A stretch of 64,000 bases of DNA, taken from positions 1-64,000 of the forward strand of contig JAKUCV010002538.1 of assembly GCA_028386065.3 (NCBI GenBank). The letters run 5' to 3'. Below the pieces are notes generated by a model. The model worked only from the letters and a program-made list of their open reading frames with translations. It did no database searches and was not told where the DNA came from. Source of the stretch: Turnera subulata. Lineage: Eukaryota > Streptophyta > Magnoliopsida > Malpighiales > Passifloraceae. Positions 28,971 through 63,021 of the stretch are shown piece by piece. The first letter of the stretch is position 1; each line of letters begins with the position of its first letter. The position numbers and the translations under genes are program-made.

Positions 28971-28974
28971 GGTG

Positions 28975-32634: not shown

Positions 32635-32829
32635 ATGTTTTTCTTTTCTCCAGCAACAACACATGTGATTAATGATCTCTTTCCTTGCCTTGCCTTGCCT
32701 TTGTTTTTTCTTTTTTCTCGACCGAAACAATTTTTTTTCCATGAACACGATTCAACTCTTGCGCAGCTTCAATTTATTCTCCACCCAAAACAATGCACCC
32801 CCCTTTTTTTTTTCTTTCACTGTCCAACC

Positions 32830-33790
32830 TGGGAAGAATTGAGGTGGAAGAGTTGTCATTGCCTGATTTTAGTCAAGTTTCTAAGTTTCGTGGTGAATAC
32901 TACAGGTTGTCCATAATCAAGGTGGAAAAATTATTTTCTCAGGAGGAGGAGAAGGAAGAGTTAATGGTTAAAGAAAATAATTTTTCTTTCTAGGGAGACA
33001 ATGAAGGCAAACAGATAGAAGCTAAACAAGTGGAGGAGAAGAAAGATGTGATAATTATTGAAAATTCTTTGTTCTTTCAAGGAGTTAAGTTGACAGAGGT
33101 TGAACAAGAAGAGGAAAGAAAGCCAAAACTGGTTAAAAGGAAGGAAGTTGAAGAAATTGGTTTCATCTACGGTGAGAAAATTGATTTTATTGGTATTGAT
33201 CAATTTTTCTCAACCAAGGGAGTAAGCAACTTTGTTGAGAGTCTTCTTGGATGCAACAAGAAATGAGAGACAGTCCAAGATGTCATTAACAAACAAGATG
33301 AAGCCTAGAAGATGCAATTGAAGAATATCATGCAATTTGAAAAGGATGTGGAGCTGAAGATTTGGTTTGATTCAAGGAAGATGTTACTGTTCGAAGCAAA
33401 GTTCGAGTTAGTCACAGCAACAACAATGGCGCTGACGACACTTGCAATTGATGGAATTGGGTAGAGCCATGTTTGTACTTTTAAGCTTAGTTTAAGGGAG
33501 ACATTGTTGGATATTAAACTAAGCTTAGTTTTATTGGGTTTAGGAGTATTTACTTTATTGGGTTTTAAGAGTCTAAGTCCGGTTCGGTTTAGGAGTTATA
33601 TCTTGTCCTTTAAGTCAGAGTCTTTATAAATAGGTATGTTAGGTTTTTATTATCAGCGTAGCAAAGTAATAGTGTGAGAAAAACACCGAAGGTGTGTGGC
33701 TACCATAAGGGGGCACCGTGGTGTCATCTAGTTTACTGTGAAGGCTTTCAAGATCAATAAAAAGTTTGTATTGCCGGTGAATTTTCTATA
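32830..33790 (+). mobile_element. Second copy of the gag-only LTR element, plus strand, 5'-truncated
   Basis: From about 32,830 the sequence matches the minus-strand copy at about 27,890 downward: TAGTCAAG, CTACAGGTTG, then the Lys/Glu-rich reading frame (32,900-33,266), the phrase AAGCAAAGTTCGAGTTAGTC, the purine stretch TTTAAGGGAGACAT, and an LTR beginning TGTTGGATATTAAAC at 33,505. The LTR contains TATAAATAGG (about 33,625) and AATAAAAAG (about 33,757), giving an outline of U3, R and poly(A) region. Its 3' limit near 33,790 is approximate. The gag-coding half is missing. The sequence between the LINE tail and 32,830 is T-rich and unassigned. Confidence 0.7.
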
Positions 33791-34143: not shown

Positions 34144-36859
34144 TGTAACAGCCCGGGTAAAAATTTTGATTTTTACTGGGACTGTAAAAGTCTTTTTACT
34201 GTGATTTACTGTTGAATTAATCTTGGGTAATTAATTCAAGGTAAATCGGGCATCGTTTTGTTGAAACCGAGAGTTTTTCCGCGCTCGTGATTTTTTCGTG
34301 GATTTTTTGGGCCTAAGTTGGTATTTTTCGGGTTTCGGAATTTCTCGGAAAATCACACCGGAAAAAAACTAAGGGGGTATCAGTTATTTTCTGGTCCGGA
34401 CCGGACTCGCTCCAGAAAATTGCATTATTGAAGCTCACATGTCAACAGTAAAAAAACAGTTTAAAAGTAGGAAAACCGGTGAAGAGGAAGGGAGAGGGGA
34501 AGGAAAAAAAAAAGAGAGAAAAGAAAGAAGAGGAAAAAAAAGAGAGAAGAAAAAAAAGAAAAAAAAGGAAACTGGAAAAGAAAAACCGAGAGGAGAAGAA
34601 GAAAAATAAGGAGAAAAAAACAAAGAGAGAATCGGAAAGAAAAAAATGGAAGAGAGGAAAATAGGAAAAAGAGAAAAAAAAAAGAAAAAGGGGAGAGGAG
34701 AAGGGTCACCGCCGGCCACCATCATCAACAACCCCCCCATCTCCTTGTCGCCGTCGTTGCAGGACGAGGAGTGGTCGTCGCCGTCCTCCTCATGCGTGTC
34801 TGCAAGGCCACGGAACCACCATCTCCAGCCGTGCCACCGCCCTTGGACGAGGAGACCCGACTTGGATCCGTTCTCTTCCGCTCGCGTCGCACCGCCGCAC
34901 CACCAGCAGCCGCCTTGCCCGCAAAGCGCGCCCCCAGCGTCGTTGCTCCCGTGCCTCACGCCGCCTTCGCCTCGCCAAGCACCACCATCGCGCCGCCGAC
35001 TGCAAGCCGAGGTGAGCAGCAGATCCGTTTGTAAGGTTTCGACCCGGATGGACTTCCATGGGTCGGGTTGACCCGGGGTTGAGTGGTTGGGCCGCGGGCT
35101 GTGTCGTGGGCTGGCGCGTTGTGGGCTGAGTCTGAGGGTTGGTTTGGGCTGCTACCTAAGCCTGGGCTTGAGCTTATGTAGCTGGCCAGGCTTAACCTTG
35201 GGCCAGTCCAAATTAAAAAAAAAGAAAAAAAATTTGGAAAAAGAGAAAAAATATAATTCAGGAAATAATAATTCATGGGAAGGAAATAATGGGTAAATTT
35301 TGAATAATTATTGTAAATGCTATTGGAAAAGGAAGTATATAGGTATGTTTATTAATACAAATTTATTTTTAGGAAGTAATTTCGTATGACTAGTTTTTTT
35401 GGAAATATAGTTTTCTTAATATAATAATATTTGGTAATTATAATATGGAAAATAGTTTTATTAAAAATATAATATTTTGGGAAAATATATATACTTACAT
35501 ATGTTATCTTTCTCAGAAAATTATGGTAATTATTATTTTGGGAAAAGTATAATTAATTTATGAAAATGTTTTGAAAGAGTTTTAATTAAAATATAGTATC
35601 GAAATTATATTCGGATATACGTACGATATAATATTTTCGGTAAAAGATGATCATAAATGATATGAACCGGGATGGGGTATTTCGCAGTTTTGGCATCATA
35701 GTATACTGATTATGTGCATTTATGTGAATATATGGTTTTGTCGTATAGGTTCGGATATCGGGCAGTTTCCCGAGGAGCCGGAGTCGGACCGGTCATTGTT
35801 TCCGGAGTTGAGTAATCGGCCAAGATGAGGATGGATTTCCTTCAATATGTGCCTGTATTACTCGGTTATTGAGTTTGATGTTGCATTTGCTGTGGTTTGC
35901 TGTGGTTGGTTCGGGATGTTTATCCCATGGTCTTGATTGTGGTCGGGATGTTTATCCCATGTTGGTTTTTAGATGTTTATCCTTGCGTCTTTTTGGTTTA
36001 AAGTATAATGGAATTAATAATAAATTGTGATAAGGATGTCGATCCTTGATTTTGGATAGGGATGTCTATCCCGGTATTATGGTTAGGGATGTTGATCCCT
36101 GTGATTTGATTTTGATGACGATAATATAATTGTCACGTGGTAAGTAGTGGTACGACTCGATGGTTTAAGACTGTTTCATGGTGGCCTTGACCTAGGTTAC
36201 CTGTGATAAGCATGTCTATGTTTGGGATGTCTATCCCGTGATTTTTTTTTGGGATGTCTATCCCTGGGTTCGTATTTTTGGGATGTCGATCCCTGGGTTC
36301 TCTGGATTTGGTCTGGCACCCGGAATATGTTGATAACCAGGTCTGACCTCTAGCATATCCGTGACGGGGCCTGGAAAGATAAAATTGGAAATTGGATTTA
36401 TTTTGATTTATTCTTTTGGTTTGTTTTATTTTGGCTGTTTAGCCTGTGTTTGACTTGAGTAATTATAGTTGCATATTGATTGTCTTTCCTTCGTCGGTGA
36501 GCACTTCGGACTCACCCCTCACCTGTGGGCTTTCATCCCGTAGGATGAATTATTTGTTGTACAGGTTTAGTGCATTCCATAAAGGCTGCGGCATTATCCC
36601 TTGGACAGGGCTCGGATCCATAGTTTGCATCAGTGTCGCATACAGTGTCTTGTGAGTTATTAAGTCTTCCGCTGTGCATTATTTTGTTTTTGTTGGGCCA
36701 TTGGGCCGATTATGTTATTACTGACGTTATTATTTTTGGGCTGCTGAGCCCGAGTTACTGTTGTATACACTGTATGCTGGGCTTGTTTTGGTTGGATCGT
36801 CACAGTTTCGGCACGTGTTTTGTTTACTGTGTACGGTAAATATGGGTCGGAGCGTTTCA
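34144..36859 (+). repeat. 5' long terminal repeat (2.7 kb)
   Basis: TG…CA ends. Internal organisation in order: about 330 bp start region; purine-only-like tract about 34,480-34,700; GC-rich block about 34,700-35,010; candidate splice donor AG|GTGAGC at 35,012; AT-rich block about 35,210-35,690; candidate acceptor GTATAG ending 35,748; array of GGGAT-GTnnA-TCCC palindromes about 35,910-36,300; GGGCCATTGGGCC and GGGCTGCTGAGCCC palindromes about 36,695-36,750. Open frames within the purine tract and GC block are compositional. Confidence 0.9.
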
Positions 36860-37013: not shown

Positions 37014-37814
37014 TCACATATGAGGTAAATGAAGCCATAAATAAGCGAAAATACAAATATTATTAATAATACTAATAATTTCATTACAAAGATAAACATT
37101 ACATTGATATTTTATAAAAATAAAAATACATTTATCGCCTTGGAACGACGTTGACCTGAAGCTGTTGGGGTCGTTGTTGATGTTGACTTGGATGCTGTCA
37201 CTCCACGAGAACCACATGCCGCCTGTGTTGTTCTGACCAGGAAGCTCGAACCGGTTTGCTTGGGGGAACCGGAGTGGGATGAGACCGTGATCATCTTCAG
37301 GTTGCCACTGAGTCTCCGTGAGAAGAACCATGTTTGGCTTGTATTGGATCTTCAGGTCCCTCAAGGTATGCGAGAACTCCTGGGAACGCCTAGCGACTCC
37401 TCTGCAGTTCCACACCAGTAGTCGGGCCTTGGGCCAAGTTACGGGCAGAAGAGTGACTCTGGGCATGCTTTGGGCCGTCATCGAGAGCTGATAGTAGGTG
37501 CCGTGCTCCAAGGTATGGCAAGTGGACTCTAGGTTGAACTCCTGAAGTCTTTCGGAGATGAAGAACATGATGGAGTTTGCCGAGCCGTAGTAGGAGGTCC
37601 TCAGAGTGCCATGGTCCTCCAGGAAGAGCGTCTCTTCCATGGGAGTGATGAAGAATCTGGATGAGTAGAGTTCGTCGACGAAGACCAGACGCGGCATCCT
37701 GCCGAGCTCGTTCAGAAGTTCTTCTGGACGCTCGTTGACTATGCTGTAGGTAAGTCGGTTCCTTCTTCCTAGATTGGCACCTTCGATGAAGAAGACGGAT
37801 GAGGGAGCAGGCAT
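37014..37814 (-). CDS. Antisense ORF: unknown N-terminal region plus LINE-endonuclease-like part
   Basis: A 266-codon frame starting MPAPSSVFFIEGANLGRRNR. Residues 1-125 match no family I recognise. Residues about 128-217 resemble the first part of an L1-type endonuclease: LLVWNCRGVARR, then KPNMVLLTETQ (the Asn and Glu of the metal site), then NRFELPG…GGMWFSW. The later catalytic part (Asp/Asn and the SDH end) is absent, so nuclease activity is unlikely. It lies antisense inside the long-LTR element, with TATAAAAG about 110 bp upstream on its own strand. The frame is intact. A homologue lies antisense in the Sirevirus at 58,389-59,072, about 70% identical over about 215 residues without gaps; the last 50 residues here are not shared and look AT-rich and accidental. 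Function unknown; a host- or element-selected role is inferred from conservation. Confidence 0.7.
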   Translation of the reverse strand: MPAPSSVFFIEGANLGRRNRLTYSIVNERPEELLNELGRMPRLVFVDELYSSRFFITPMEETLFLEDHGTLRTSYYGSANSIMFFISERLQEFNLESTCHTLEHGTYYQLSMTAQSMPRVTLLPVTWPKARLLVWNCRGVARRSQEFSHTLRDLKIQYKPNMVLLTETQWQPEDDHGLIPLRFPQANRFELPGQNNTGGMWFSWSDSIQVNINNDPNSFRSTSFQGDKCIFIFIKYQCNVYLCNEIISIINNICIFAYLWLHLPHM

Positions 37815-37922: not shown

Positions 37923-37930
37923 CTTTTATA
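37923..37930 (-). promoter_or_regulatory. TATA-like box upstream of the antisense ORF
   Basis: Read on the minus strand this is TATAAAAG, about 110 bp before the ATG at 37,814. No ATG lies between on the minus strand in a strong context. The Sirevirus homologue has TATAAATA at a similar distance, which raises confidence that the antisense ORF has its own promoter. Confidence 0.55.
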
Positions 37931-38648
37931 CTCTTATGGGGAGCGTGATAACTGTTTTCGATCTTCAAGATTTTGCTTTTTGAAATTTGCCGTTGCTTCA
38001 TTTATTGCTTTGTTACTTTATACGTTTTTCGGACTACCATGCCAGAGTTTTTCAGCCTTTTCCCATCCCATGATTTTTTTCGCTCTGGCTACTTTATCTT
38101 TTCTTCTTATGGTTTTATTATATTTTCCTGCATCTTTTATCGCATGTATTCGTGACCGTTGAGGCTAGACGGATGGGGCCATACCTCGAGTAGAGTGCAT
38201 GTGCGATAAGGTCACACCTGTTCGGACATCGTGGAGGGATACGAGACTTGACATACGTTTTTGGCTCATGCGGAATTTGTGAACAAGTGGGTACATTTCT
38301 TTCAAGGGACACAGGACGTGCTCGTGATCATCGCCTCACGAGTTAACGGACGTCACCGTTAGCTGCGTACGTTACGTTTCTCGGGATCGAGGATGGTTAC
38401 GATCGATTTAGAGCGCCGAGCATGAAACATGTTTTGTTTTAATTCCATTTTGTTTTGATTTTGTTAAACGAGTTTTATTTTTGATTTCTTTATGTTTGAT
38501 TTTATATTTTTATTGTTAAGTTTTATTTTGCCTTGAGATGTTTTAATTTTCCGTTTAACATAAGTTTTCGTAACATAAGAATTTTTGATTTAAAAAGGAA
38601 ACTTATTTTATTTAATTCATAAGATTTTACAACAGGAGAAGAAGTACT

Positions 38649-38990
38649 CTAAGGAGTTACTTGCTTCTCTAGGTCTTTTACAAGCTTTTGGACGTTTTTC
38701 ATGTGAGGGAAGAGCTCCACGCACGCCAGTTCGATCTGCAACACCGCCGAGCTGATCTTCTTGAGTGAGACGTTCAGCTGCGTCAGTGTCTGCTGCGGAG
38801 TGCTGCTCTCAGCTATCGCCTTGCCCTTCTTATCCTCAGCTTTCTTGGGAGCACGTTTCTTTCGCCGTCTGCTGGAGACGACCATGTGTTCCTTCAGGCC
38901 GATGATGTTGGTTTTGAACCGCTTCTTCGGAGGTTCTTCATCGGAGCTTGTCAGGAAAGCAGTGCCGCCGATGTAGCTGTTGTTCTAGGA
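38649..38990 (-). CDS. Second antisense ORF, basic/coiled-coil protein, 5' end uncertain
   Basis: The frame from the ATG at 38,885 gives 78 aa starting MVVSSRRRKKRAPKKAEDKK, a strongly basic nuclear-localisation-like stretch. It is followed by an amphipathic helical part (LTQLNVSLKKISSAVLQIEL) ending LEKQVTP. The same frame stays open upstream to about 38,985 with DEEPPKKRFKTNIIGLKEH, so the real start may be further 5' and beyond an in-frame stop. Another minus-strand frame at 38,951-39,163 overlaps it and may be a frameshifted 5' part. No family recognised. Like the first antisense ORF it lies opposite to the element's direction. Whether both belong to one transcript cannot be told. Confidence 0.4.
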
Positions 38991-39180
38991 GTCTGATGTA
39001 GTTCTTGATCGCAGTGGATAGTCCATGACTGTGTGTGAGTATGCCAGTCATGAGGTTTGGTTCTTATAGAGGACGAGATGTCGCTTATGGGTATAAGCGG
39101 TATCTCGGGTTGAGGTTGGACACCTGGCAGAGTGTGCCAGAAGCTTATCGTGGTAGGACCCACGGATAAGACGGAATTTC

Positions 39181-39210
39181 GGGGACGAAATTTTTTTGAG
39201 GAGGGTAGAC
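39181..39210 (+). other. Polypurine tract before the 3' LTR
   Basis: GGGGACGAAATTTTTTTGAG followed by GAGGGTAGAC lies immediately before TGTAACAGCC. The GGGGACGAAATTT phrase before the 3' LTR is common in Ty3/gypsy chromovirus-type elements and fixes the + orientation. Confidence 0.8.
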
Positions 39211-41939
39211 TGTAACAGCCCCGGTAAAAATTTTGATTTTTACCGGGACTGTAAAAGTCTTTTTACCGTGATTTACTATTGAATTAATTTTGGGTAATTA
39301 ATTCAAGGTAAATCGGGCATCATTTTTTCGAAACTGAGTGTTTTCCCGCGCTCGTGATTTTTCCGTGGATTTTTCGGGCCTAAGTTGGTATTTTTCGGGT
39401 TTTGGAATTTCTCGGAAAATCACACCGGAAAAAAACTAAGGGGGTATCAGCTATTTCCTGGTCCGGACCAGACTCGCTCCAGATAATTGCATTATTGAAG
39501 CTCACATGTCAACAGTAAAAAAACAGTTTAAAAGTAGGAAAACCGGTGAAGAGGAAGGGAGAGGGGAAGAAAAAAAGAAGAGAGAAAAGAAAGAAGAGGA
39601 AAAAAAAGAGAGAAGAAAAAAAAAAGAGAAAAAAAAGAAAACTGGAAAAGAAAAACCGAGAGGAGAACAAGAAAAATAAGGAAAAAAAAAAGAGACAATC
39701 TGAAAGAAAAAAATGGAAGAGAGGAAAATAGGAAAAAGTGAAAAAAAAAAAAGAAAAAGGGGAAAGGAGAAGGGTCACCGCCGGCCACCATCACCAACAA
39801 CCCCCCCATCTCCTTGTCGCCGTCGCTGCAGGACGAGGAGTGGTCGTCGTTGTCCTCCTCATGCGCGTCTGCAAGGCCACGGAACCACCATCTCCAGCCG
39901 TGCCACCGCCCTTGGACGAGGAGACCCGACTTGGATCCGTTCCCTTCCGCTCGCGTCGCACCGCCGCACCACCAGCAGCCGCCTTGCCCGCGAAGCGCGC
40001 CTCCACCGTCGCTGCTCCCGTGCTCACGCCGCCTTCGCCTCGCCACGCACCACCATCGCGCCGCCGTCTGCAAGCGGAGGTGAGCTGCAAATCCGTTTGT
40101 AAGGTTTCGACCCGGATGGACTTCCATGGGTCGGGTTGACCCGGGGTTGAGTGGTTGGGCCGCGGGCTGTGTCGTGGGCTGGCGCGTTGTGGGCTGAGTC
40201 TGAGGGTTGGTTTGGCCTGCTACCTAAGCCTGGGCTTGAGCTTATGTAGCAGGCCAGGCTTAACCTTGGGCCAGTCCAAATTAAAAAAAAAAGAAAGAAA
40301 AAGAAATAAAATTTGGAAAAAAAGAGAAAATATAATTCAGGAAATAATAATTTCTGGGAAGGAAATAATGGGTAAATTTTGAATAATTATTGTAAATGCT
40401 ATTGGAAAAGGAAGTATTTAGGTATATTTATTAATACGAATTTATTTTTAGGAAGTAATTTCGTATGACTAGTCTTTCTGGAAATATAGTTTTCTTAATA
40501 TAATAATATTTGGTAATTAAAATATGGAAAATAGTTTTATTAAAAATATAATATTTTGGGAAAATATATATACATACATATGTTATCTTTCTCAGTAAAT
40601 TATGGTAATTATTATTTTAGGAAAAGTATAATTAATCTATGAAAATGTTTTGAAAGAGTTTTAATTAAAATATAGTAACGAAATTATATTTGGATATACG
40701 TACGATATAATATTTTCGGTAAAAGATGATCATAAAGGATATGAACCGGGATGGGGTATTTCGCAGTTTTGGCATCATAGTATACCGATTATGTGCATTC
40801 ATGTGAATATATGGTTTTGTTGTATAGGTTTGGATATCGGGCAGTTTCCCGAGGAGCCGGAGTCGGACCGGTCATTGTTTCCGGAGTTGAGTAATCGGCC
40901 AAGATGAGGATGGATTTCCTTCAATATGTGCCTGTATTACTCGGTTATTGAGTTTGATGTTGCATTTGCTGTGGTTTGCTGTGGTTGGTTCGGGATGTTT
41001 ATCCCATGGTCTTGATTGTGGTCGGGATGTTTATCCCATATTGGTTTTTGGATGTTTATCCTTGCGTTTTTTTGGTATAAAGTATAATGGAATTAATAAT
41101 AAATTGTGATAAGGACGTCGATCCTTGATTTTGGATAGGGATGTCTATCCCGGTATTATGGTTAGGGATGTTGATCCCTGTGATTTGATTTTGATGACGA
41201 TAATATAATTGTCACGTGGTAAGTAGTGGTACGATTCGATGGTTTAAGACTGTTTCGTGGTGGCCTTGACCTAGGTTACCTGTGATAAGCATGTCTATGT
41301 TTGGGATGTCTATCCCGTGATTTTTTTTTTGGGATGTCTATCCCTGGGTTCGTATTTTTGGGATGTCGATCCCTGGGTTCTCTGGATTTGGTCTGGCACC
41401 CGGAATATGTTGATAACCAGGTCTAACCTCTAGCTTATCCGTGACGGGGCCTGGAAAGATAAAATTGGAAATTGGATTTTTTTTGATTTAGTCTTGTGGT
41501 TTGTTTTATTTTGGCTGTTTAGCCTGTGTTTGACTTGAGTAATTATAGTTGCATATTGATTGTCTTTCCTTCGTCGGTGAGCACTTCGGACTCACCCCTC
41601 ACCTGCGGGCTTTCATCCCGTAGGATGAGTTATTTGTGGTACAGGTTTAGTGCATTCCAGACAGGCTACGGCGTTATCCCTTGGACAGGGCTCGGATCCA
41701 TAGTTTGCATCAGTGTTGCATACAGTGTCTTGTGAGTTATTAAGTCTTCCGCTGTGCATTATTTTCTTATTGTTGGGCCATTGGGCCGATTATGTTATTA
41801 CTGACGTTATTATTTTTGGGCTGTTGAGCCCGAGTTACTGTTGTATACACTATATGCTGGGCTTGTTTTGGTTGGGTCGTCACAGTTCCGGCACGTGTTT
41901 TGTTTACTGTGTACGGTAAATACGGGTCGAAGCGTTTCA
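39211..41939 (+). repeat. 3' long terminal repeat
   Basis: Full-length partner of 34,144-36,859 with the same internal blocks: purine tract 39,550-39,760, GC block to 40,079, donor AG|GTGAGC at 40,080, acceptor GTATAG ending 40,827, palindrome array about 40,990-41,380. It ends GAAGCGTTTCA. It is followed not by target DNA but by a copy of the internal leader. Confidence 0.9.
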
Positions 41940-42792
41940 TTTTGGTAGCGGAGCGGGCGTTAGGTCTTGTTGGGCAGTCCTTGTGTGTTTGTTGTCCTTT
42001 TTCGCATAGTTCGCTCCATTTGTTTATTATTTTATATCATTTAGGTTAGTGCATTATGGATCCAGTCAAGGGACGCCAGTTGATGGTTTAAGACTCGATG
42101 GTTTAAGACTGTTTCGTGGTGGCCTTGACCTAGGTTACCTGTGATAAGCATGTCTATGTTTGGGATGTCTATCCCGTGATTTTTTTTTGGGATGTCTATC
42201 CCTGGGTTCGTATTTTTGGGATGTCGATCCCTGGGTTCTCTGGATTTGGTCTGGCACCCGGAATATGTTGATAACCAAGTCTGACCTCTAGCTTATCCGT
42301 GACGGGGCCTGGAATGATAAAATTGGAAATTGGATTTTTTTTGATTTAGTCTTTTGGTTTGTTTTATTTTGGCTGTTTAGCCTGTGTTTGACTTGAGTAA
42401 TTATAGTTGCATATTGATTGTCTTTCCTTCGTCGGTGAGCACTTCGGACTCACCCCTCACCTGCAGGCTTTCATCCCGTAGGATGAGTTATTTGTGGTAC
42501 AGGTTTAGTGCATTCCAGACAGGCTGCGGCGTTATCCCTTGGACAGGGCTCGGATCCATAGTTTGCATCAGTGTCGCATACAGTGTCTTGTGAGTTATTA
42601 AGTCTTCCGCTGTGCATTATTTTGTTATCGTTGGGCCATTGGGCCGATTATGTTATTACTTACGTTATTATTTTTGGGCTGTTGAGCCCTTGTTACTGTT
42701 GTATACACTGTATGCTGGGCTTGTTTTGGTTGGGTCGTCACAGTTCCGGCACGTGTTTACTGTGTACGGTAAATACGGGTCGGGGCGTTTCA
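41940..42792 (+). repeat. Extra leader plus partial LTR at the 3' end
   Basis: 41,940 to about 42,082 repeats the leader found after the 5' LTR (36,860 to about 37,003), including TGGTAGCGGAG and GGATCCAGTCAAGGGA. From about 42,083 to 42,792 comes a second copy of the last 0.71 kb of the LTR (matching about 41,230-41,939), joined at ATGGTTTAAGACT. It ends GGGGCGTTTCA and abuts the TSD CCACG, so the structure is LTR-leader-partial LTR inside one insertion. Confidence 0.88.
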
Positions 42793-47064: not shown

Positions 47065-47074
47065 AAAATAATTA

Positions 47075-49660: not shown

Positions 49661-51494
49661 TGTAACAGCCCGGGTAAAAATTTGGTATTTTTGCTGGGAC
49701 TGTAAAAGTTTTTTTACAGTGATTTACCTTTGAATTTAATCTTGGGTAATTAATTCAAGGTAAATCGAGTGTGTTTTTTCGTAACCGAGTCTTTTCCCGC
49801 GCTCGTAATTTTTCCTTGGATTTTACGGACCAAAGTTGGTGTTTTTCGGGTCCCGGAATCTTCGGAAAATCACACCGGAAAATAACCAAGAGGGTATCAG
49901 TTATTTTCTGGTCCGGACCGGACTCGCTCCATAATGCAGACAAGCTGCATTATTGAACGTTCACAGGTTGTACAGTATTTTCATCTTTATAAATCAGAAG
50001 CAGGAGAGGAGAAGGGGAGGAAGAGAAGAAGGGAAGAAGGAGAAAAAAAAAAAAAAGAGAGGGAGAGAAAAAGAAAAGAAAAGAGGGGGGAAAAAAGAAA
50101 GAAAAAGAAAAAAATAAATAGAAAAAAACAGAAAATAGAAAAAAATGAGAGAGAAAAAAAAGAAACCAATGAGAAAATAGAGAAAAGAAAAGAAAATGAA
50201 AGAAAAAGAAAAGAAAAAAAAAGAAAAAAAAGAGGGAAAAAAAGGAAGAAGATGAACAGTGCCGTCACCTCCGGGTTCCGCCGGTTACTGTTCACCTCGA
50301 ACAGCTCCGGTCCGCCGTGCACGACACCGACCCTAGCAACACGCTCGCCCTGCTGTCGCGAGCTCAGCCCCGCTGCCCCCGTCGCCTTCCGCCACTCGAC
50401 GCGCCGTCAGTGGCCGTTGACCCGCGGCGAAACCCGTGGATCTTGCTCCCAGCGCCGCTGACGACGACACCGTCAGCCTTCTGCCTCCTTTCCGCCACCT
50501 ATGGAGTTGCCTCGATGTCGCCGACTCCGCGCTAGCCTTCCCTCGCGTTGTCGCGCCGCCGACCACCGCTGCTAGGTAAGAACCCGATTCATCTGGGCGG
50601 GTCGCGCCTGGGTCGCGCCTTCCCTGGCTTCTGGGTTGCCGGGTTGGGTTTGTTTTTTTTTTAAAATAAATAAATATCTATATATATATATATATCTGTA
50701 TATATATAATTATTCTGGTATTTAATTTTCAAAAAAAAATAATATATATTCACTTTGAGAAAATTATGATCAATTTAATTCTGGTATTTTGAGAAAATAT
50801 AAATATATGTACTTTGATAAATAATTAAGTTATGTTTTAGAAAAACTATTATTATTTGGAAAAAATATATATACCATGAAAATAATTTCTGGAAATTTTA
50901 TATAATTATATTTACTGGAAATATGGTTTTCTAATATAATAATAATTGGTAATTATATTTTGGCAAGAAATATATTTTATGGAAATAATTTCAGGAAAAA
51001 TACACACATATGATATAATTTCTAGGAAAATTATATTGTTATTATTTTGGAAGACAAAGTATAAAAACTCTATAAAAAAATATTTAAAGGAGAGTTTTAA
51101 TTAAAGTATGGTACCGAAATTATATTCGGATATACGTACGGTATAATATTTTCGGTAAAAGAAGATAATAAAGGATATGAACCGGGATGGGTTTATTTCG
51201 CAGTTTTGGCATCATAGTATACCGATTATGTGCATTTATGTGAGCATGTTATTTTGTTGTATAGGTTTGATATCGGGCAGTTTTCCGAGGAGCCGGCTTG
51301 GGACCGGTCATTGTCTTCGGAGTTGAGTAATCGGCTAAGGTGAGGATGGATTTCCTTCAATATGTGCCTGTATTACTCGGTTGTTGTGTATGATGATTGT
51401 TGCACTGTTGAGTGTTGCATTTGCTGTGGTATGATTCGGGATGTTTATCCCAGTGTCTTGATTGTTTTTGGGATATTTATCCCCGTGTTGAGTT

Positions 51495-52889
51495 TTTTGA
51501 ATATAATGCTTTGCTAATATCTCTTTCTGTTATTCAGGTTTAGATAATGACAAATTAACCTTGTCTTTGATCATAGTTATGAAGCAAAAAGAAATTAATC
51601 AAGGGCAAAGATTTCATGTGATCAAGAATACAAGAATTGAAGTAACAAGGTCAAGCAAGAAGAGCAAGAAAAGTTAGAAACACAATTTTGTACAAGGTTA
51701 AACCTTCAATTTCTTTAAATTATTGGCTCAAACAAAATCATTTTTACTCATACATCATATTGCCTTGTTTTCAATCATAAAAATGTTTTCTAAGCTTTGA
51801 ACATCGATGTTTAATATCCCAACATCGATGTTCTCATGACCGTTGTACTTAAAACATTATTTTGAAGTATCCTAACATCGATGTTCAATACCATAACATC
51901 GATGTCCATTTGAATCCGGTTTCAAGATTGTCTTGGGAGTGTCCAAAACATCGATGTCCAACCACGAACATCGATGTTATTTTGTCTTGGGTCATGAGTG
52001 TCGAAATAACGACATCGATGTCCAACCATTAACATCGATGTTATTTTGTCTCGGGTCATGGGCATTGAAATAACAACATCGATGTTCACTTTGGAAACAT
52101 CGATGTTCTAGTGACCGTTAGCCCAATAATTCACCAGGACATCGATGTCCTATTTCCCAACATCGATGTCCTTGTGACCGTTGGACCAAAAAAATGCATA
52201 TTCAAAGATCAGAACATCGATGCCCTAGTTTTGAACATCGATGTTCAGCCGTCATGAGCAGACACACTTTTCATCCTCTCATGTTACTTTGTTTAAAGAT
52301 GTTTTCGATTGATTTCCCAACGGTCATACATATTTTTAACCTTATAAATAGAGCATTTAGGTCTCCGTTTACGCTGGATCAACTCTCTACAATTTCAAGC
52401 ATTCATTGTTATACATACATATCATTTTTTATGAGCCAATATCCTTGAGAATTGAGAGTTGCCTTATAGAGTTTACTTTGTATACTCATACCTACTCTTG
52501 AAGAGAGTTTTTGTTTTGAGTGACTCAATTGTAATCATACACCTTGAGGGAGGATTGTTCCCTTGTAGAAGATTCATAGGAAGAGGATTTTCTTTCTGTG
52601 TAAAAAGACTTGAAGTGAGGTATCTTCAAGCAGAAAATTAGAGGTTCGTGTGATTCGAACTCTAGGTTCGTAAACGGTTTGTTAAGCACCCGGAAGCTTA
52701 ACGTGGATAGTGAAATCTTCAAGAGAGTCTCTTGAAGGACTGGATTAGCCACACAGGTTGTGTGTGTGTGAACCAGTATAAAATCGGTTTGTCTCTCTCT
52801 CTTTTAATTCCGCAATTATTATTTCTTTAATCTTTTGATTTGTTCTTAATCGCTAATTCACCCCCCCTCTTAGCTTGTTTGGGCTTACA
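51495..52889 (+). repeat. 5' LTR of the Sirevirus
   Basis: Ends GGGCTTACA before the PBS. Contains 14 copies of the CATCGATG core (51,799-52,248), mostly as ACATCGATGT with AA/TT flanks, then CCTTATAAATAGAGC (TATA at about 52,342-52,349) about 100 bp after the array. The palindromes lie upstream of the TATA box, i.e. in U3, where enhancer or silencing factors would bind. Confidence 0.92.
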
Positions 52890-52944: not shown

Positions 52945-54912
52945 ATGGCTTTTGAGGGGTACAATATCCACAAAGCTTCTTTCTTTGATGGTATGAACTT
53001 TGACTATTGGAAAGTTAGAATGCAAATGTTCCTAGAAGGTCAAGGTTTAGAAATTTGGGAGATAGTTGAAAGTGGTTGGAATAGGCCACCTAAGCCTTTG
53101 TGTGATTGGAGTGATAGTGAGAAGAAGAAAGGTACTCTAGATGCCACAGCTAGAAATTCTCTATTATGTGCCTTAAGTAAAGAAGAGTTTGAAAGAATTA
53201 GGATTTGCAAGAGTGCTCATGAAATTTGGACACTCTTATGTACTACTCATGAGGGAACAAACCAAGTAAAGGAATCCAAGACAAATAGGCTTATGAGAGA
53301 TTATGAGCTTTTTACAATGAATCCTAATGAGTCCATTTATGACATGAGTACTAGATTTTCAACTCTATGCAATAATCTGGTAAGCCTTGGTAAGGTTATT
53401 AGTGATAAAGAGAAGGTCACCAAAGTGTTGAGATCCTTGAGTAGGGAGTGGGAATCTAAAGTCACAGCAATTGAAGAGGCCAAAGATCTTAATGTCCTAT
53501 CCTACAATGAACTGATAGGTTTTTTAATTGCTTATGGAATGAAGTTTGAAGGCAAAGAAGAAAAGAAGAAAGATCTTGCCTTGAAAATTCAAGATTCTTG
53601 TGAAGAGGATGCAAGTGACAGAGATGATGATATGGCTCTAGTCACAAGGAAGTTCATGAAGTTTCTCAAGAAGAAGAGATTGCAAAAAGGGAGGAATATG
53701 AAGAGCACCTCGAAATATGAAGATACAAAGAAAAACCCAATTGTTTGCTATAAATGCAACAAATCCGGTCATATCAAATCGGAATGCCCATACAAAAAGA
53801 AAGCAAATCCTGATTCTTCAAAGAGCTCAGGCAAGAAAATCATGGTGGCATGGGATGAAGATGACACATCATCAAGTGACTCGGATAGTGATGAAGATGC
53901 ACATATATGCTTCATGGCTCTTGAAGATGATGAGGTAAATGATTCTTCTAATGACTTTACATTTGAAGAATTACATGATGCGTTCATTAATTTGCATGAA
54001 GAACTTGAGAAGTCCGTGAAAATGAATCAAACTTATAAAAAGCAACTCATGACTCTTGAAGAAGAAAAGCATGCTCTTAATGTGTCTTACAATGAACTAA
54101 ATGAGAGAATATCTTCTAATGTATGTGCTTATGTTGTATTGGGAAAAGAGAATGAGTCTCTTAAGTCTCAAGTTGATGATTTAGAGAAAACCTTAGAGAA
54201 ATTTACAAAGGGTAGAGATAGTCTTAATCTTCTTTTAGGACAACAAAGAAATCCAACACAAAAGGAAGGATTAGGTGCATCCAATGTGTCATATGAGGTC
54301 AAACCTATTGTGCAAAATGCTAAGACACATGAACATGGTGCTTCTTCTTCTACACATCATACTAGATCACATGATCATAGAGGGTCATATGCTCAAAAAG
54401 CAAGACCATATGCAAGTAGTAGTACATCCCATTATGCTAGATTGTATGCCAATGATAGAAGACCATATCCCTACAATGTTAGGTCAAATGATAATGGTGC
54501 AAGACTACATGTAAACAATATCAGAAATGTGGGATCTCATTCTATTAAACCAAGTGCACATGGTAGAAGATCATATGCTCACATTGCTAGAACTCATACT
54601 AATAATGATACATCACGTGCTCATTATGTTAGATCATTTGCATACAATGCAAAACCTCATGATTACAATTCAAGAGCACAAGCATATAGAGCTAGATCAT
54701 TTCTCAACTATGCTAAGTTGAATACCTATGGTGGTAGGAAACAATCTTATCATAATAGAGCTCATGATCATTCTTATATTCCTTCAATCACATGCTATCA
54801 TTGTAAAAAACATGGTCATGGAATTCGTACTTGCATGTTCAAGAGTATGAATCCACATGTGAAATATGTTTGGGTACCTAAAGGTACTAAAGCTAACATT
54901 CAAGGACCCTAG
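52945..54912 (+). CDS. gag: Sirevirus gag (655 aa)
   Basis: Structural protein forming the retrotransposon particle in the cytoplasm. The frame is intact from ATG 52,945 to TAG 54,912. Residues 1-240 form the copia gag domain ([38 protein letters not shown]). A first CCHC knuckle, [14 protein letters not shown], starts at residue 268. An acidic Asp/Ser tract follows (about 300-320), then a predicted coiled coil (about 345-435, [15 protein letters not shown]). Next is a long His/Tyr/Arg/Asn-rich stretch (about 450-605) with recurring A-R-[SP]-[YFH] units, and then a second knuckle, [14 protein letters not shown], from residue 617. Two knuckles and a long tail are usual in Sirevirus gag. Pol follows in the +1 frame and overlaps the gag end. 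The start is the first ATG after the PBS. Confidence 0.92.
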
Positions 54913-54913
54913 A

Positions 54914-57900
54914 TTAAGTGGGTACCTAAGTTTTTTTTTTGTGTTTTTACAGGATGACAAAGATGAGTGGGTACTTGGTAGTGGATGTTCACGCTATATG
55001 ACGGGTGATGAATCAAAATTTTCGTCTTTGAAAGGTAAAGGTAAAGGTAAAGTAACATTTGGTGATAGCTCTAAGGGGAAAATACGTGGTATCGGTGATA
55101 TTGGTTCTAATCCTACTATTGAGCATGTTCTTCTTGTTGATAACTTAAAATTCAATCTTTTAAGTATAAGTCAACTATGTGATAAGGGATATAGAGTCAC
55201 TTTTGAATCTACTAAGTGCATAGTTACTAGATGTGTTGATGATCACTTACTCTTTATGGGGAAAAGGATTGGAAATCTTTACTCAATCAACCTAAAAGAA
55301 GTTGCTAACAATGATGTTAAGTGTTTTAGTGCAAAAATGGAGACATCTATTTTATGGCATAGGAGGCTTGGACACGCCAATTTGGAATTGATTTCCAAAC
55401 TATCCAAGAAGGACCTTGTTAAGGGTCTACCCATGCTCAAATTTGAAAAAGAAGGAGTATGTAGAGCTTGTCAACTTGGAAAGCAGGTTAGAAGTTCCTT
55501 CAAAATCAAAAATATGGTAACAACTTATAGACCTCTTGAACTCCTGCATCTTGATCTTTTTGGTCCTATGAGGACAACTAGTCTTGGTGGTATGAGTTAT
55601 GTCTTTGTTATTGTTGATGATTACACTAGATTTTCTTGGGTCATATTTCTTGCTAGTAAAGATCATGCTTTATATGAGTTTGGATGCCTTGTTAGACGTT
55701 TACAAAATGAAAAAGGTTATAAGATTTTTAAAATCAGAAGTGATCATGGTGGTGAGTTTGATAATTTTTTGTTTGATCATTATTGTGAACAATGTGGCAT
55801 TGAACACACTTTTTCTACTCCTAGAACACCTCAACAAAATGGGGTTTTTGAGAGAAGAAATCGGATATTGCAAGAAATGGCACGCACTATGTTAAATGAA
55901 AATGGTATACCTCCATACTTTTGGGCCGAAGCGGTTAATACCGCATGTTATGTGCTAAATAGAGTCTTCTTAAGGCCTATCCTCAAGAAAACTCCTTGTG
56001 AACTGTGGCATGGTAGAAAACCAAATATTGATTACTTTAAGGTGTTTGGATCAAAATGCTATATTCTTAATACCAAGGACAATTTCGGTAAGTTTGATGC
56101 TAAATCAGATGAAGGTATATTTCTTGGTTACTCTATTACTAGTAAGGCCTATCGTGTGTATAACAAAAGGACTCTTCTTGTTAAAGAATCCATGCATGTT
56201 ATATTTGATGAAGTTGATTTGAATGGTGATAGAGATGATGATATAATAAATTTCACACATAGACCTTCACCAAGCACGAATGTTGACGCTTCAACTAGCC
56301 ATACTTCATTGGATCATGGTTCTTCACCAACGAATAGAAGTGAACCTAAAAATGATGATATTTCCTTCCCTCAATCTTTTGATGTACAAGAGAAGGAAAA
56401 GGAAACAATCGAAGGACAAGGTATTGTGGAAATCAAGGTACCAAGGGGACATTCTCCTAGTGCAATTCTTGGGGATCCTACAAAAGGGGTAGTTACTAGA
56501 TCATCTTTACATAATTTGAATGGTCATGTTGCATTTTTGTCACAAGTCGAGCCTAAAAATGTTAAAGATGCTATTAATGATGAAAGTTGGGTTATTGCTA
56601 TGCAAGAGGAGTTAAATCAATTTGAGAGAAGTCAAGTTTGGAATCTTGTTCCTAGACCTCATGATCATCCCGTTATTGGCACTAAGTGGGTCTTTAGGAA
56701 TAAGTTAGATGAAAATGGTATTGTTGTGAGGAACAAAGCTAGACTTGTTGCTCAAGGTTATAATCAAGAAGAAGGCATTGATTTTGATGAAACATTTGCT
56801 CCTGTTGCTAGATTAGAATCCATTCGCATGCTTCTTGCATATGCATCATATAAAGTATTTAAATTGTTTCAAATGGATGTCAAGAGTGCTTTCTTAAATG
56901 GCTATATCATGGAGGAAGTGTATGTTGGGCAACCCCCGGGTTTGAAAATCATGAGTTTCCTCATCATGTGTTTAAACTCAAAAAGGCACTTTATGGTTTG
57001 AGACAAGCTCCAAGAGCTTGGTATGAAAGACTAAGTAACTTCCTTGTTTCTAATGGTTTTACAAGAGGAAAGGTTAATACTACCTTGTTTGTCAAAACTC
57101 ATATGCATGAATTACTCATTGTTCAAATATATGTGGATGATATTCTTTTTGGTGCTACTAATGAGTTTTTGTGTAAGGAATTTGAAAAGTCCATGCAAAA
57201 TGAATTTGAGATGAGCTCCATGGGGGAGTTAACTTATTTCCTTGGATTTCAAGTAAAACAACTTGAAGGGGGCATATTCATTAATCAAGCCAAGTATACA
57301 AAGGAGTTACTCAAAAGATTCGGGATGGACAGTGCTAAGATTAGCCCAACACCCATGAGCACTACCACTAAGCTTGCCAAGGATGAGGAAGGTAAAGATG
57401 TTGATATCAAGCTATATAGAGGTATGATCGGAAGTTTGCTTTACCTAACGGCTACTAGACCAGACATCATGTTTAGTGTTTGTCTATGTGCACGATTTCA
57501 AGCTTTTCCAAAAGAGTCTCATTTACGTGCTATTAAACGCATTTTTAAGTATCTTAAAGGGACTCCCAATCTTGGTCTTTGGTATCCCAAAGTGAGCTCA
57601 TTTACTCTCACTAGTTATTCCGATGCGGATTTTGCTGGGAGTACCATAGATAGAAAGAGCAATAGTGGTACATGTCAATTTCTTGGTCAAGCATTAGTCT
57701 CATGGTCGAGTAAAAAGCAAAATTCCGTAGCTACTTCCACTACCGAAGCGGAATATATAGCTGCAGGTTCTTGTTGTGCTCAAGTTTTGTGGATGAAACA
57801 TACTCTTAAAGACTATGGCTTCAAGTTTGAATCAATCCCTATTTATTATGATAGTACTAGTGCCATCAATCTCACCAAGAATCCTATCCAGCATTCACGG

Positions 57901-58041
57901 ACAAAGCATATAGAGATTAGACATCATTTTATTCGTGATCATGTGCAAAAGAATGATATAACACTTGATTTTGTCAAGACCGATGGACAACTTGCAGATA
58001 TGTTCACCAAGCCTTTGAAAGAAGACAATTCGCAAAAATAA
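54914..58041 (+). pseudogene. pol: Sirevirus pol: protease, integrase, RT, RNase H; frameshifted
   Basis: Protease: the motif reads [12 protein letters not shown], where the catalytic Asp is Gly (codon 54,977-54,979), so protease should be inactive. Integrase: [10 protein letters not shown]…CRACQLGKQ zinc site, then LHLDLFGP (first Asp), [10 protein letters not shown] (second Asp) and GVFERRNR (Glu). [45 protein letters not shown]; catalytic YVDD at about 57,133. RNase H: SYSDADFAGS, TEAEYIAAG, YYDSTSAINL, ending ADMFTKPL. A one-base loss near 56,941-56,944 in GGTTTGAAAA shifts the frame between QPPG and [10 protein letters not shown], so RT is split into frames 54,866-57,001 and 56,968-58,041. 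A run of ten T (about 54,931-54,940) just upstream of protease could be where ribosomes change frame from gag to pol; this is inference. Confidence 0.9.
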
Positions 58042-58388: not shown

Positions 58389-59072
58389 TTAACGATTTGG
58401 TACAGCAGTTACAGAGAAGCTATTAGGGTCATTGAAAATATTAACCCTAACACTATCATTCCATGCAAACCACATTCTACCCGAGTTATCCTGGCCAGGG
58501 ATTTCAAACCGATTCACTGATGGAAAACGGAGAGGGATGACCCCGTGGTTTTCGCCAGGTTGCCATAATGTCTCGGTGAGCAGAACCATGTTCGGCTTGT
58601 ACTGGTTCTTCAGGTCTCTCAAGGTTCTTGTAAAATCTTGAGAGCGCCTAGTGACTCCCCTGCAATTCCACAATAGCAGGCGAACCTTTGGCCAAGTCGG
58701 TGGTAAGACAGGGACTCGTGAAGCACTCTGATAAGTCATTGAAATTTGATAGTAGCTGTCCTCATTCAGAGTCTGGCAAGAAGACCTCAGCTATAAATTC
58801 TGAAATCGGTCAGAGATAAAAAATATTGTGGAGTTGGCCGAACCATAAAAAGAAATCCGCAAGGTGTTTTGATGTTCCAGGAAGACTGTCTCTTCCATGG
58901 GTGTGAAAAAAAATCTGGAAGAGTAGAGCTCGTCAATGCAGACCAAACGAGGGATCCTCGCAAGCTCATTTGGAAGTGGCTCTGGTTGCTCATTCATCAG
59001 GTTATAGGCTAAACGATTTCTCCTACCTAGGGATGCTCCCTCAACAAAAAAGACAGTAGAAGGGGAAGGCAT
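58389..59072 (-). pseudogene. Antisense ORF of the Sirevirus, homologue of the 37,014-37,814 ORF
   Basis: On the minus strand a 228-codon frame begins MPSPSTVFFVEGASLGRRNR and shows one in-frame stop near 58,790 but no indel. The N-terminal about 125 residues are of unknown family (PNELARIPRLVCIDELYSSR, FFFTPMEETVFLEHQNT). The second part resembles the start of an L1-type endonuclease: LLLWNCRGVTRRSQ, KPNMVLLTETLW, NRFEIPG…MWFAWND. The catalytic second half is absent. About 150 of 217 aligned residues are identical to the ORF in the long-LTR element. A TATAAATA box lies 82-90 bp upstream on the same strand. Position between pol and the env-like ORF, antisense to both, is not part of the standard Sirevirus plan I know. 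Because of the stop this copy is probably broken. Confidence 0.75.
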
Positions 59073-59153: not shown

Positions 59154-59161
59154 TATTTATA
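59154..59161 (-). promoter_or_regulatory. TATA-like box upstream of the Sirevirus antisense ORF
   Basis: Minus-strand TATAAATA, 82-90 bp before the ATG at 59,072, with a C/T/A-mixed leader between. Matches the position of the TATA-like box at 37,923-37,930 in the other element. Confidence 0.6.
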
Positions 59162-60244
59162 GAAACACAACTGCATTGCTTCTTCTCTCAGAAGGTGACC
59201 CCTACCAATTTCTGAAGTGTCCAGAGATTGTTCAGGAGGTGACCCCTACCTATCTTTGAAAAATATTCAGGAGAAGACCCCTCCAAACTGCTTCGATTTT
59301 CAAGAATCTTCTTTTTGAAAAACTTGCCAATTAGTTAAATTATTGCTCAATCAATGTCTACAACCCTACAAATTTTTCCGATTATCAAAGCTTTCCTTTT
59401 TGACAATCGTGGTTTTAATTGAATTATTGATTCCTCACGGGATTTGCTGTCTGGCTCCAAGAACGGATTCTGTTTGACAGAGATACACAAAGTCAAATTG
59501 ATGGGACAAATATCTCAACAACTATGCATATACGACGAAGTTACTTCTATTTAGAAATACAGGAATCCCAGATATTTTTCTCTTGATCAATACAATGAGT
59601 GAATTCCATTGTCATATCTTTCTGTTACAAATTACTGACTTCAGCGTCGGAGTGTCTTCTAAGTTTGCTTTGCAGGTACTCCTAATCAACGCCAAAGGAC
59701 AGGGGGAACTGGATCTACAACAATTGGACCAAACATGTATAAACAATGACAAAATCCATACAACATCGATGTTCTGTATCAGAACATCGATGTTGAGCTG
59801 CAAAAGTATCTTCACCTCTCTAACCCGAGGACCTATAACATCGATGTGGAGGTTTTGAACATCGATGTTTGGCTGCCAAAAGGTTTCCACAACTCTGACC
59901 CGAGGATACATAACTTCGATGTTTCTCGTTTGCACATCGATGTTCGTTCCTTTTACCTTTCCAAAGCTTCGACCCGAGAGCAATCAACATCGATGTTACG
60001 GGCTGGAACATCGATGTTCAGCTGCTGAAATTTAAAAAAAAATAGCCGTTGCGTGACTGTTACTAGCCGTTACTAGCCGTTGTCCCCTACATAAAACACA
60101 ATGCTCTTCATTTCTCATCTCAAATCGCTCTTCTCCAAAGTCTATCTAGCTCTCCTTTAGCATTCTCATCTACACATTCTTCCTACTTTCTTCTCTAATC
60201 TCTTTTTGCTTCCACACTTATTCTTTATCCTTCTTTCTTCAAAC
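59162..60244 (+). other. Spacer with internal palindrome array
   Basis: No ORF. A cluster of seven perfect or near-perfect ACATCGATGT sites lies at about 59,762-60,020, set in pairs within repeated phrases (CTGACCCGAGGA, GCTGCAAAAG). A triplicated phrase, TAGCCGTTAC/TAGCCGTTGT, lies at about 60,043-60,085. The end (60,100-60,240) is C/T-rich, as expected for the leader of the downstream ORF. Confidence 0.65.
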
Positions 60245-61611: not shown

Positions 61612-61625
61612 AAAAAGGGGAAAAT
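61612..61625 (+). other. Polypurine tract of the Sirevirus
   Basis: AAAAAGGGGAAAAT lies directly before the 3' LTR (TGTTGAATAT at 61,626). Similar purine motifs lie upstream at about 61,498 (AAAAGGGGGAAAT) and 61,566 (ATAGGGGGAATT), and after pol at about 58,110. Confidence 0.8.
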
Positions 61626-63021
61626 TGTTGAATATAATGCTTTGCTAATATCTCTTTCTCTTATTCAGGTTTTGATAATGACAAATTAACCTTGTCTTTG
61701 ATCATAGTTATGAAGCAAAAAGAAATTAATCAAGGGCAAAGATTTCATGTGATCAAGAATACAAGAATTGAAGTAACAAGGTCAAGCAAGAAGAGCAAGA
61801 AAAGTTAGGAACACAATTTTGTACAAGGTTAAACCTTCAATTTCTCTAAATTATTGGCTCAAACAAAATCATTTTTACTCATACATCATATTGCCTTGTT
61901 TTCAATCATAAAAATGTTTTCTAAGCTTTGAACATCGATGTTCAATATCCCAACATCGATGTTCTCATGACCGTTGTACTTAAAACATTATTTTGAAGTA
62001 TCCTAACATCGATGTTCAATACCATAACATCGATGTCCATTTGAATCCGGTTTCAAGATTGTCTTGGGAGTGTCCAAAACATCGATGTCCAACCACGAAC
62101 ATCGATGTTATTTTGTCTCGGGTCAAGAGTGCCGAAATAACGACATCGATGTCCAACCATTAACATCGATGTTATTTTGTCTCAGGTCATGGGCATTGAA
62201 ATAACAACATCGATGTTCACTTTGGAAACATCGATGTTCTAGTGACCGTTAGCCCAATAATTCACCAGGACATCGATGTCCTATTTCCCAACATCGATGT
62301 CCTTGTGACCGTTGGACCAAAAAAATGCATATTCAAAGATCAGAACATCGATGCCCTAGTTTTGAACATCGATGTTCAGCCGTCATGAGCAGACACACTT
62401 TTCATCCTCTCATGTTACTTTGTTTAAAGATGTTTTGGATTGATTCCCCAACGGTCATACATGTTTTCAACCTTATAAATAGAGCATTTAGGTCTCCGTT
62501 TACGCTGGATCAACTCTCTACAATTTCAAGCATTCATTGTTATACATACATATCATTTTTTATGAGCCAATATCCTTGAGAATTGAGAGTTGCCTTATAG
62601 AGCTTACTTTATATACTCATACCTACTCTTGAAGAGAGTTGTTGTTTTGAGTGACTCAATTGTAATCATACACCTTGAGGGAGGATTGTTCCCTTGTAGA
62701 AGATTCATAGGAAGAGGATTTTCTTTCTGTGTGAAAAGACTTGAAGTGAGGTATCTTCAAGCAGAAAATTAGAGGTTCGTGTGATTCGAACTCTAGGTTC
62801 ATAAACGGTTTGTTAAGCACTCGGAAGCTTAACGTGGATAGTGAAATCTTCAAGAGAGTCTCTTGAAGGACTGGATTAGCCACACAGGTTGTGTGTGTGT
62901 GAACCATTATAAAATCGGTTTGTCTCTCTTTCTTTTAATTCCGCAATTATTATTTCTTTAATCTTTTGATTTGTTCTTAATCACTAATTCACCCCCCCCT
63001 TTTTGCTTGTTTGGGCTTACA
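61626..63021 (+). repeat. 3' LTR of the Sirevirus
   Basis: Starts TGTTGAATAT and ends GGGCTTACA, followed by TSD GAGTT. It contains 14 CATCGATG cores (about 61,930-62,380) at the same positions as the 5' LTR and a TATAAATAG at about 62,474. The only length difference noticed from the 5' LTR is in a C/T run near its end. Confidence 0.93.

Follow-up and report, generated by a model that had tools for sequence, protein, structure and literature searches.

Antisense extra open reading frames (ORFs) of plant LTR retrotransposons have been described before, without clear similarity to database proteins in the sections of PMC7264820 that we draw on. The closest cases are Grande gene23, RIRE2 and Retand ORF4 (Transposase_28), which are likewise antisense internal ORFs conserved across copies and to which no function is assigned in the parts of the accounts consulted (PMC7264820, PMC11963269). 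The antisense ORF of Grande is described as having a promoter of its own and a product located in the nucleus, and for Retand non-autonomous elements exist, as at the locus analyzed here (PMC7264820, PMC11963269). These elements are all gypsy elements and encode other proteins, whereas the gene that we describe from a 64,000-nt stretch of the Turnera subulata genome (hereafter the window) is common to a copia element and a chromovirus-type element, carries an EEP-like half and has been exchanged between elements. We consider it probable that it represents a protein-coding antisense accessory gene, kept by purifying selection and exchanged between element families, that likely helps the element carrying it.

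The gene comprises 227 codons and is shared by a long-LTR element and a Sirevirus, with both copies oriented opposite to their own element (Table 1). An earlier note, made from the window alone, had reported homologous antisense ORFs at 37,014-37,814 and 58,389-59,072, with about 150 of 217 residues identical and no gaps. Both stretches are real and both are antisense, and the gap-free protein alignment yielded 154 identical residues out of 223 (E 7e-107). As ORFs, the two stretches needed correction, since both window copies are damaged, the Sirevirus copy by a stop and the long-LTR copy by a 1-nt slip. The frame of the Sirevirus copy is closed by the stop at codon 94, which is unique to this copy among the 19 copies of its type. 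The 266-aa ORF reaching down to 37014 ends in a false tail: the slip leaves the frame of the gene, whose stop is at 37132, and the ending of the 227-codon frame was seen in 41 of 48 long-LTR loci (hand count of printed tails).

The protein of the two window copies is 69% identical although silent sites are saturated. Differing sites at codon positions 1, 2 and 3 number 54, 29 and 128 of 223 (pS 0.77, pN 0.17), and a codon model gave an omega of 0.088 at a dS of 2.15 (2dlnL = 142 vs omega = 1). The remaining five frames of the pair showed amino-acid identities of 0.37-0.60 with 4-19 stops per copy. A recount on the letters of the 17 codons compared in the note (37,389-37,442 against 58,647-58,703) returned the same six silent and three replacement differences, a pattern that the note had called the opposite of neutral drift.

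Table 1. Positions of the antisense gene, its surroundings and its carrier elements in the window
Feature	Position	Strand	Remarks
Antisense accessory gene, long-LTR copy	37132..37814	-	frame of 227 codons; 1-nt slip close to codon 220
EEP-like C-half, long-LTR copy	37143..37442	-	first third of Exo_endo_phos, E 0.0048, below Pfam cut-off
Putative TATA box TATAAAAG, long-LTR copy	37923..37930	-	116 nt before ATG
Upstream block common to both elements, long-LTR side	37957..38009	-	76.8% over 56 columns, E 7e-5
Second antisense ORF, basic-rich	38652..39026	-	upstream end approximate, from other copies; window stop just before 38984
5' LTR, non-autonomous chromovirus-type element	34144..36859	+	preceded by CCACG
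Chromovirus-like pol tail	39165..39210	+	directly before 3' LTR of long-LTR element
3' LTR side, long-LTR element	39211..42792	+	LTR, leader repeat to 42082, second partial LTR 42089-42792, then CCACG
Antisense accessory gene, Sirevirus copy	58389..59072	-	in-frame stop at codon 94
EEP-like C-half, Sirevirus copy	58392..58700	-	Exo_endo_phos, E 0.021, below Pfam cut-off
Putative TATA box TATAAATA, Sirevirus copy	59154..59161	-	89 nt before ATG
Upstream block common to both elements, Sirevirus side	59292..59347	-	same alignment as long-LTR side
Sirevirus 5' LTR	51494..52889	+	range aligned to 3' LTR, 98.1%
Sirevirus gag and pol, three ORFs (copia-type gag, integrase, reverse transcriptase)	52945..58041	+	Pfam
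Sirevirus 3' LTR	61625..63021	+	aligned to 5' LTR, 98.1%

The Sirevirus is a Ty1/copia element, with the Pfam domains Retrotran_gag_2, rve and RVT_2 in that order (integrase before reverse transcriptase). Its copy of the gene lies on the opposite strand between the end of pol (58041) and the 3' LTR, which is the aORF-3R position. The long-LTR element has no pol, so that of this placement the orientation alone can be checked there. Sireviruses are described to carry a conserved AGGGGGAG polypurine tract in several copies ahead of the 3' LTR (PMC2829016). By inspection, G-rich tracts such as AGGGGGAA were seen near 61567 in the window Sirevirus. Two sense ORFs at 60206-61395, located after pol at the position of env-like ORFs, gave no Pfam match. 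The Sirevirus itself lies between two LTR pieces (49661-51500 and 63025-63991) of a relative of the long-LTR element (77-81% identity) and looks nested. Two further structures were observed in the window: inverted arms of 542 nt (82% complementary) at 27070-33647 around approximately 5.5 kb with a LINE-type reverse transcriptase (ORF 29422-30873, RVT_1), and inverted repeats of 161 and 108 nt (86-90%) at 45518-47070, about 1 kb apart and beside a 153-nt direct repeat.

The LTRs of the long-LTR element are about 2.7 kb long and share 95.8% identity where they align; CCACG flanks the element at either end. On its 3' side (39211-42792), an LTR, a repeat of the 140-bp leader and a partial LTR are enclosed by a single pair of CCACG target sites, and template switching may have produced this arrangement. 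The LTR start, TGTAACAGCC, agrees at 9 of 10 positions with TGTAACACCC, the U3 end described as most frequent among Del elements of maize and sorghum (PMC4029996), and ahead of the 3' LTR we found AATTTCGGGGACGAAATTT followed by a G-rich tract. For the pol end, 501 bases behind the SH3 domain were compared in 4 of the 150 scored chromovirus matches of the same genome. Three of these four pol ends show, by eye, AATTCG, then GGACGAATTT or GACGAATTT, a G-rich tract and TGTGA at the putative LTR start; the fourth has one base altered in the GACGAA core and TGCGA at its putative LTR start instead. Because of its Del-like LTR start and the chromovirus-like pol tail, the long-LTR element is taken as chromovirus-type (Ty3/gypsy), and more specifically as a non-autonomous derivative of a chromovirus (Del/Tekay) rather than an autonomous member.

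No gag or pol was recognized between the LTRs of this element, where the longest sense open stretch measures 101 aa, and seven chosen sense open stretches gave no Pfam gag or pol match at E up to 1. This agrees with the statement in the note that the element lacks sense gag and pol. The antisense gene is not its only coding content, as a second antisense ORF was found at about 38652-39026. Compared to a LARD, the long LTR (~2.7 kb) fits, while the inside holds two constrained antisense ORFs instead of being non-coding. We therefore refer to the element as LARD-like and not as a strict LARD.

Of the 48 long-LTR loci, 45 have TATAAA[AT] no more than 150 nt ahead of the ATG. Among the 30 Sirevirus-type loci, 29 have it before the start of the match (27 of them at -88 to -97), the sole exception being L074, in which the match starts at codon 40. 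The distance of the motif to the gene is thus almost constant. The background at random window positions, taken over -130 to -60, was 9% for TATA[AT]A and 4% for TATA[AT]A[AT][AG]. Additionally, the two elements have a block further upstream in common (Table 1). From these motifs we infer that the gene is transcribed from a TATA promoter, against the direction of its own element. A heat-shock element in the Sirevirus promoter was also considered and attributed to chance (2 perfect matches in the window vs 1.47 expected).

The C-half of the window copies covers the Exo_endo_phos profile up to position 84-93 of 225, with a best score of 17.1 bits vs the curated cut-off of 24.5. Eleven of 17 members of the gene family matched this profile (best E 0.0019), each below the cut-off, and 6 gave no match. 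NCBIfam also returned an EEP family for the C-half (E 0.045 and 0.029); the full-length Sirevirus copy, with its stop typed as X, had no Pfam match at E up to 1. Two residue pairs, W135-N136 and T166-E167, are invariant in all 17 chosen members, and we take such W-N and T-E pairs to be the first catalytic motifs of the EEP superfamily. The likely ancestor of the C-half is an EEP-type domain (LINE or AP endonuclease-like), of which it would retain the first third. The later EEP catalytic residues are missing, as the protein ends where its match to the profile ends, and a nuclease function is therefore unlikely; binding, not cutting, would be expected of such a protein.

The N-half had no Pfam match. 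In a protein database that includes plant proteins, and whose length limits would hide long LINE proteins, the protein had no match at E up to 0.01, or up to 1 with an alignment as query, with 7974 matches for pol as a control. Searches of solved structures with the ORF, the N-half, a two-member C-half profile and a 17-member profile returned nothing relevant, and structure prediction from the window copies was of low confidence (mean pLDDT 34.9). No relatives were found in viral-contig, plasmid and one prokaryote-genome scans, collections in which plant elements are not expected. A relation to gene23 or Transposase_28, checked through Pfam only, gave no match.

The genome of the window (518.7 Mb, 7125 contigs) was searched with the long-LTR form of the protein, for which the best 144 of 9590 first-look candidates were scored, and with the C-terminal 133 codons of the Sirevirus form, for which the best 150 of 7129 candidates were scored. 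The matched stretch was stop-free in 114 of these best 150 Sirevirus-form matches (hand count). We distinguish at least five gene types (long-LTR, 1, 2, 2b and 3). An open frame of 205-245 aa was detected by script in 75 of 140 loci, some of which are partial and four gene-free by design, and the start and the last residue (position 227) were at the same place in all 17 chosen representatives. Under the codon model, the long-LTR type compared to six other representatives yielded omega values of 0.051-0.081 at dS 1.68-3.40. Other type pairs yielded 0.09-0.46 over the whole gene, the highest value belonging to the close pair t3/t3b. When long-LTR copies were ranked by non-coding DNA instead (among the 40 best of 3420), the gene was present in 38 of 38 copies, with at least 600 nt in 35.

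It is improbable that copia and gypsy elements picked up a host gene separately and that the constraint reflects its host function. A host copy may lie beyond the best 144 of 9590 and best 150 of 7129 candidates that were scored, but the database that includes plant proteins held no match, and the gene runs antisense to both elements of the window, with the upstream block in common. Further, constraint is seen among copies within the long-LTR family.

This constraint was assessed on the premise that copies decay after insertion, so that with functional parents private changes should be neutral and shared ones constrained. Unique two-allele columns were counted, and an omega-like ratio relates the observed changes to those expected for the same mutation types and cytosine contexts. 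A first sample consisted of 48 long-LTR loci ranked by protein similarity, of which the 42 that keep the frame up to codon 217 were used (6 dropped); 8 of the 42 contain a stop. Silent, replacement and stop changes numbered 41/112/6 when private, 34/26/0 in 2-3 copies and 35/22/0 in at least 4 copies (private vs at least 4 copies, Fisher P = 8.8e-6). The omega-like ratio was 0.99 and 0.89 (two runs) for private changes and 0.15 for those in at least 4 copies. In the five other frames, the shared ratio was 1.99, 3.46, 1.52, 0.29 and 3.95. Sense-strand coding of the same DNA was rejected: two sense frames are unconstrained, and the third, with the shared ratio of 0.29, has 11 stops in each window copy. 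Compared to the window copy, 47 loci of this sample showed 6 indel events across the ORF (654 nt) and 307 across the 256 nt preceding it, a difference that carries the bias of ranking by protein.

A second sample was ranked by non-coding DNA (38080-38620), using the 40 best of 3420 candidates; two of these were the window and L009, and the other 38 were used. Three of the 38 were dropped for having less than 600 nt, and 8 of the remaining 35 for an indel through codon 217, leaving 27 copies; 16 of the 35 had neither an indel nor a stop. Private changes numbered 20/83/6, changes in 2-3 copies 29/15/3 and changes in at least 4 copies 46/28/0 (private vs 75/43/3 in at least 2 copies, P = 2.8e-11), with omega-like ratios of 0.76, 0.19 and 0.15, respectively. 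A signal arising as an artefact of the protein-similarity ranking is ruled out by this sample. We conclude that purifying selection kept the protein while the elements multiplied. The claim of the note that the gene is kept for its protein is thus supported by private changes near neutrality and a ratio of 0.15 for changes in at least 4 copies in both samples. The dN/dS check over many copies that it had suggested came out well below 1 for inherited changes in the long-LTR family, with private ones at 0.76-0.99.

The same data bear on two further explanations. Antisense transcription of LTR elements can work via small RNAs, as described in PMC7264820, and the antisense RNA rather than the protein might be what matters, for example by forming double-stranded RNA that tunes silencing. 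This is very improbable, as the constraint tracks codon positions and one frame only, and an RNA function needs neither. The least probable explanation is a decayed insertion, either of a LINE or of a gene fragment, that is conserved in appearance only. A C-half that looks like a domain truncated about 85 residues in and the damage in both window copies would be in line with such an insertion; however, the protein has stayed 69% identical over saturated silent sites, start and codon 227 keep their place in 17 of 17 chosen representatives, and the contrast of private and shared changes refutes decay as a full account.

The second antisense ORF of the long-LTR element was matched in 43 of 48 loci, in 37 of them gap-free, and 7 of these 37 have a stop. 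In its own frame, silent, replacement and stop changes numbered 21/30/5 when private, 12/16/1 in 2-3 copies and 28/10/0 in at least 4 copies, compared to 5/27/6 and 4/31/3 in at least 4 copies for the other two frames. Other copies extend the ORF upstream to a methionine, where the window copy has a stop. It had no Pfam match and contains basic clusters that, by eye, resemble nuclear localization signals.

For the Sirevirus-type copies, private and shared changes of type 1 did not differ significantly (36/79/3 vs 25/37/4, P = 0.25), and the shared changes include 4 stops. Type 2 (11 loci, stop-free) gave 21/22/0 private and 11/6/0 shared changes, which is the expected direction at small counts. 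Broken lineages of type 1 have multiplied: a 1-nt insertion at codon 84 is present in 6 of 19 copies, and stops at codons 89, 91, 100 and 119 are common to two or three copies. An intact gene is therefore not a constant requirement for each copy. Its product may work in trans, or broken copies may recover the gene through recombination, and the latter would fit five loci in which a type 2 gene lies beside a class A pol flank (see below).

These broken lineages fit better with the main rival to a helping gene, namely that the protein limits the activity of its own element and the family thereby persists without harming the host. Truncated Gag limits Ty1 activity in yeast. A truncated enzyme-like domain suits an interfering protein, and antisense expression would oppose sense transcription. 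However, single copies that gain by loss should drop such a gene quickly, whereas in the long-LTR family constraint persists on the shared changes, and we regard self-limitation as unlikely.

To follow the gene relative to its surroundings, the 30 best-scoring Sirevirus-type loci (L049-L078; 19 of type 1, 11 of type 2) were grouped by their pol-side flanks at 80% identity. This resulted in class A with 14 loci and classes B and C with 7 each, L058 and L071 standing alone; L076 joins class B only at 80% identity. The type 1 gene occurs with class A (9 loci), class B (1, L076) and class C (7), the type 2 gene with class A (5) and class B (6). Between L062 (class A) and L060 (class B), dS is 0.06 in the gene and 3.33 in the adjacent pol, and between L072 and L078 the gene has a dS of 0.07 with pol saturated. 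Such near-identical genes beside pol of saturated divergence indicate that the gene was exchanged between families. In three further pairs, the gene is 96.7-99.4% alike and the pol flanks are 71-73% alike (lengths differ, no codon count). The evidence for exchange includes five cross-class or within-class comparisons. L062 and L049, both of class A, are 94.5% alike in their pol flanks, 69.7% in the first 330 nt of the gene and 96.2% in its remainder, and between type 2 and type 1 dS drops from 1.97 in the N-half to 0.02 in the C-half. From these contrasts in halves and in whole genes we conclude that both have been swapped. That the gene moves between retroelements, as the note had proposed, is borne out by the dS contrast of L062 and L060 and by the occurrence of both main Sirevirus forms with both pol classes, although type 1 with class B is represented by L076 alone. 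Template switching between co-packaged RNAs would account for the exchange. Judged from the dS values of 1.68-3.40, the sharing between copia and gypsy is older than the exchange among Sireviruses.

Six class C loci (L053, L055, L057, L066, L067 and L069) retain a short piece of the start of pol alone beyond the gap region on the gene side. The deletion of pol is evident in L057 and L067, where gag comes next without interruption. Pol-deleted Sireviruses thus carry the gene too. L051, also of class C, has a rearranged flank; its Sirevirus-type gene lies between a long-LTR-type LTR start and an inverted piece of Sirevirus LTR, an arrangement resulting from either rearrangement or nested insertion.

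Gag and pol can be supplied by other elements and were lost from the long-LTR element, while the antisense gene was kept under selection; we would therefore place the benefit of the gene largely with its carrier. Most likely, the product would be a nuclear protein with a regulatory or anti-silencing function through which its own element stays transcribable, a helper role comparable to that of VANC in VANDAL elements or HBZ in HTLV-1, in role and not in sequence. More tentatively, and with somewhat less than even confidence, we propose a selfish antisense gene that travels among copia and gypsy elements, derives partly from an endonuclease fragment and serves as a shared anti-silencing or activation factor. 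It would be kept by elements that outsource their replication proteins, and lineages in which it is broken would regain it by recombination.

Among known systems, the env-like and other eORFs of SIRE elements are likewise extra ORFs between pol and the 3' LTR. The described ones are sense (eORF-3'F in 74%), whereas the gene reported here is antisense (PMC6317226, PMC2829016). The SIRE survey applied a cut-off of 250 codons (PMC6317226), and a gene of 227 codons would therefore be missed; any survey using this cut-off would overlook such genes. The AlkB ORF of Phalaenopsis Ty3/gypsy elements is described as another extra domain fixed in a plant LTR lineage, but AlkB is an active enzyme domain in one lineage, in contrast to a truncated EEP-like half in several families (PMC9289625). 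A pool of accessory ORFs used by different kinds of retroelements is likewise described for bdelloid rotifers, where ORF3 genes (GDSL, DEDDy and others) occur in LTR and Penelope-like elements. Those are animal elements, whereas the present gene is antisense, resides in a plant and has its exchange measured by dS (PMC5408684). Antisense extra genes are thus known in plant LTR elements, whereas one antisense gene common to copia and gypsy, or such an exchange, appears unreported in the titles and abstract beginnings of the literature searched, which mostly excluded subscription papers.

One antisense gene can here be traced across element families within one genome. Its EEP-like half offers a possible origin, and the benefit to the carrier could be examined by comparing lineages that retain the gene to those that lose it. 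The role proposed here is that of VANC, which is encoded by the element and protects elements of its kind against silencing. VANDAL elements are DNA transposons, VANC is unrelated to the present protein as far as compared, and its role has been shown, whereas the one given here is a proposal (PMC5735166). If the protein encoded by the antisense gene also counters silencing, it would represent a counter-defense tool shared by plant LTR elements.
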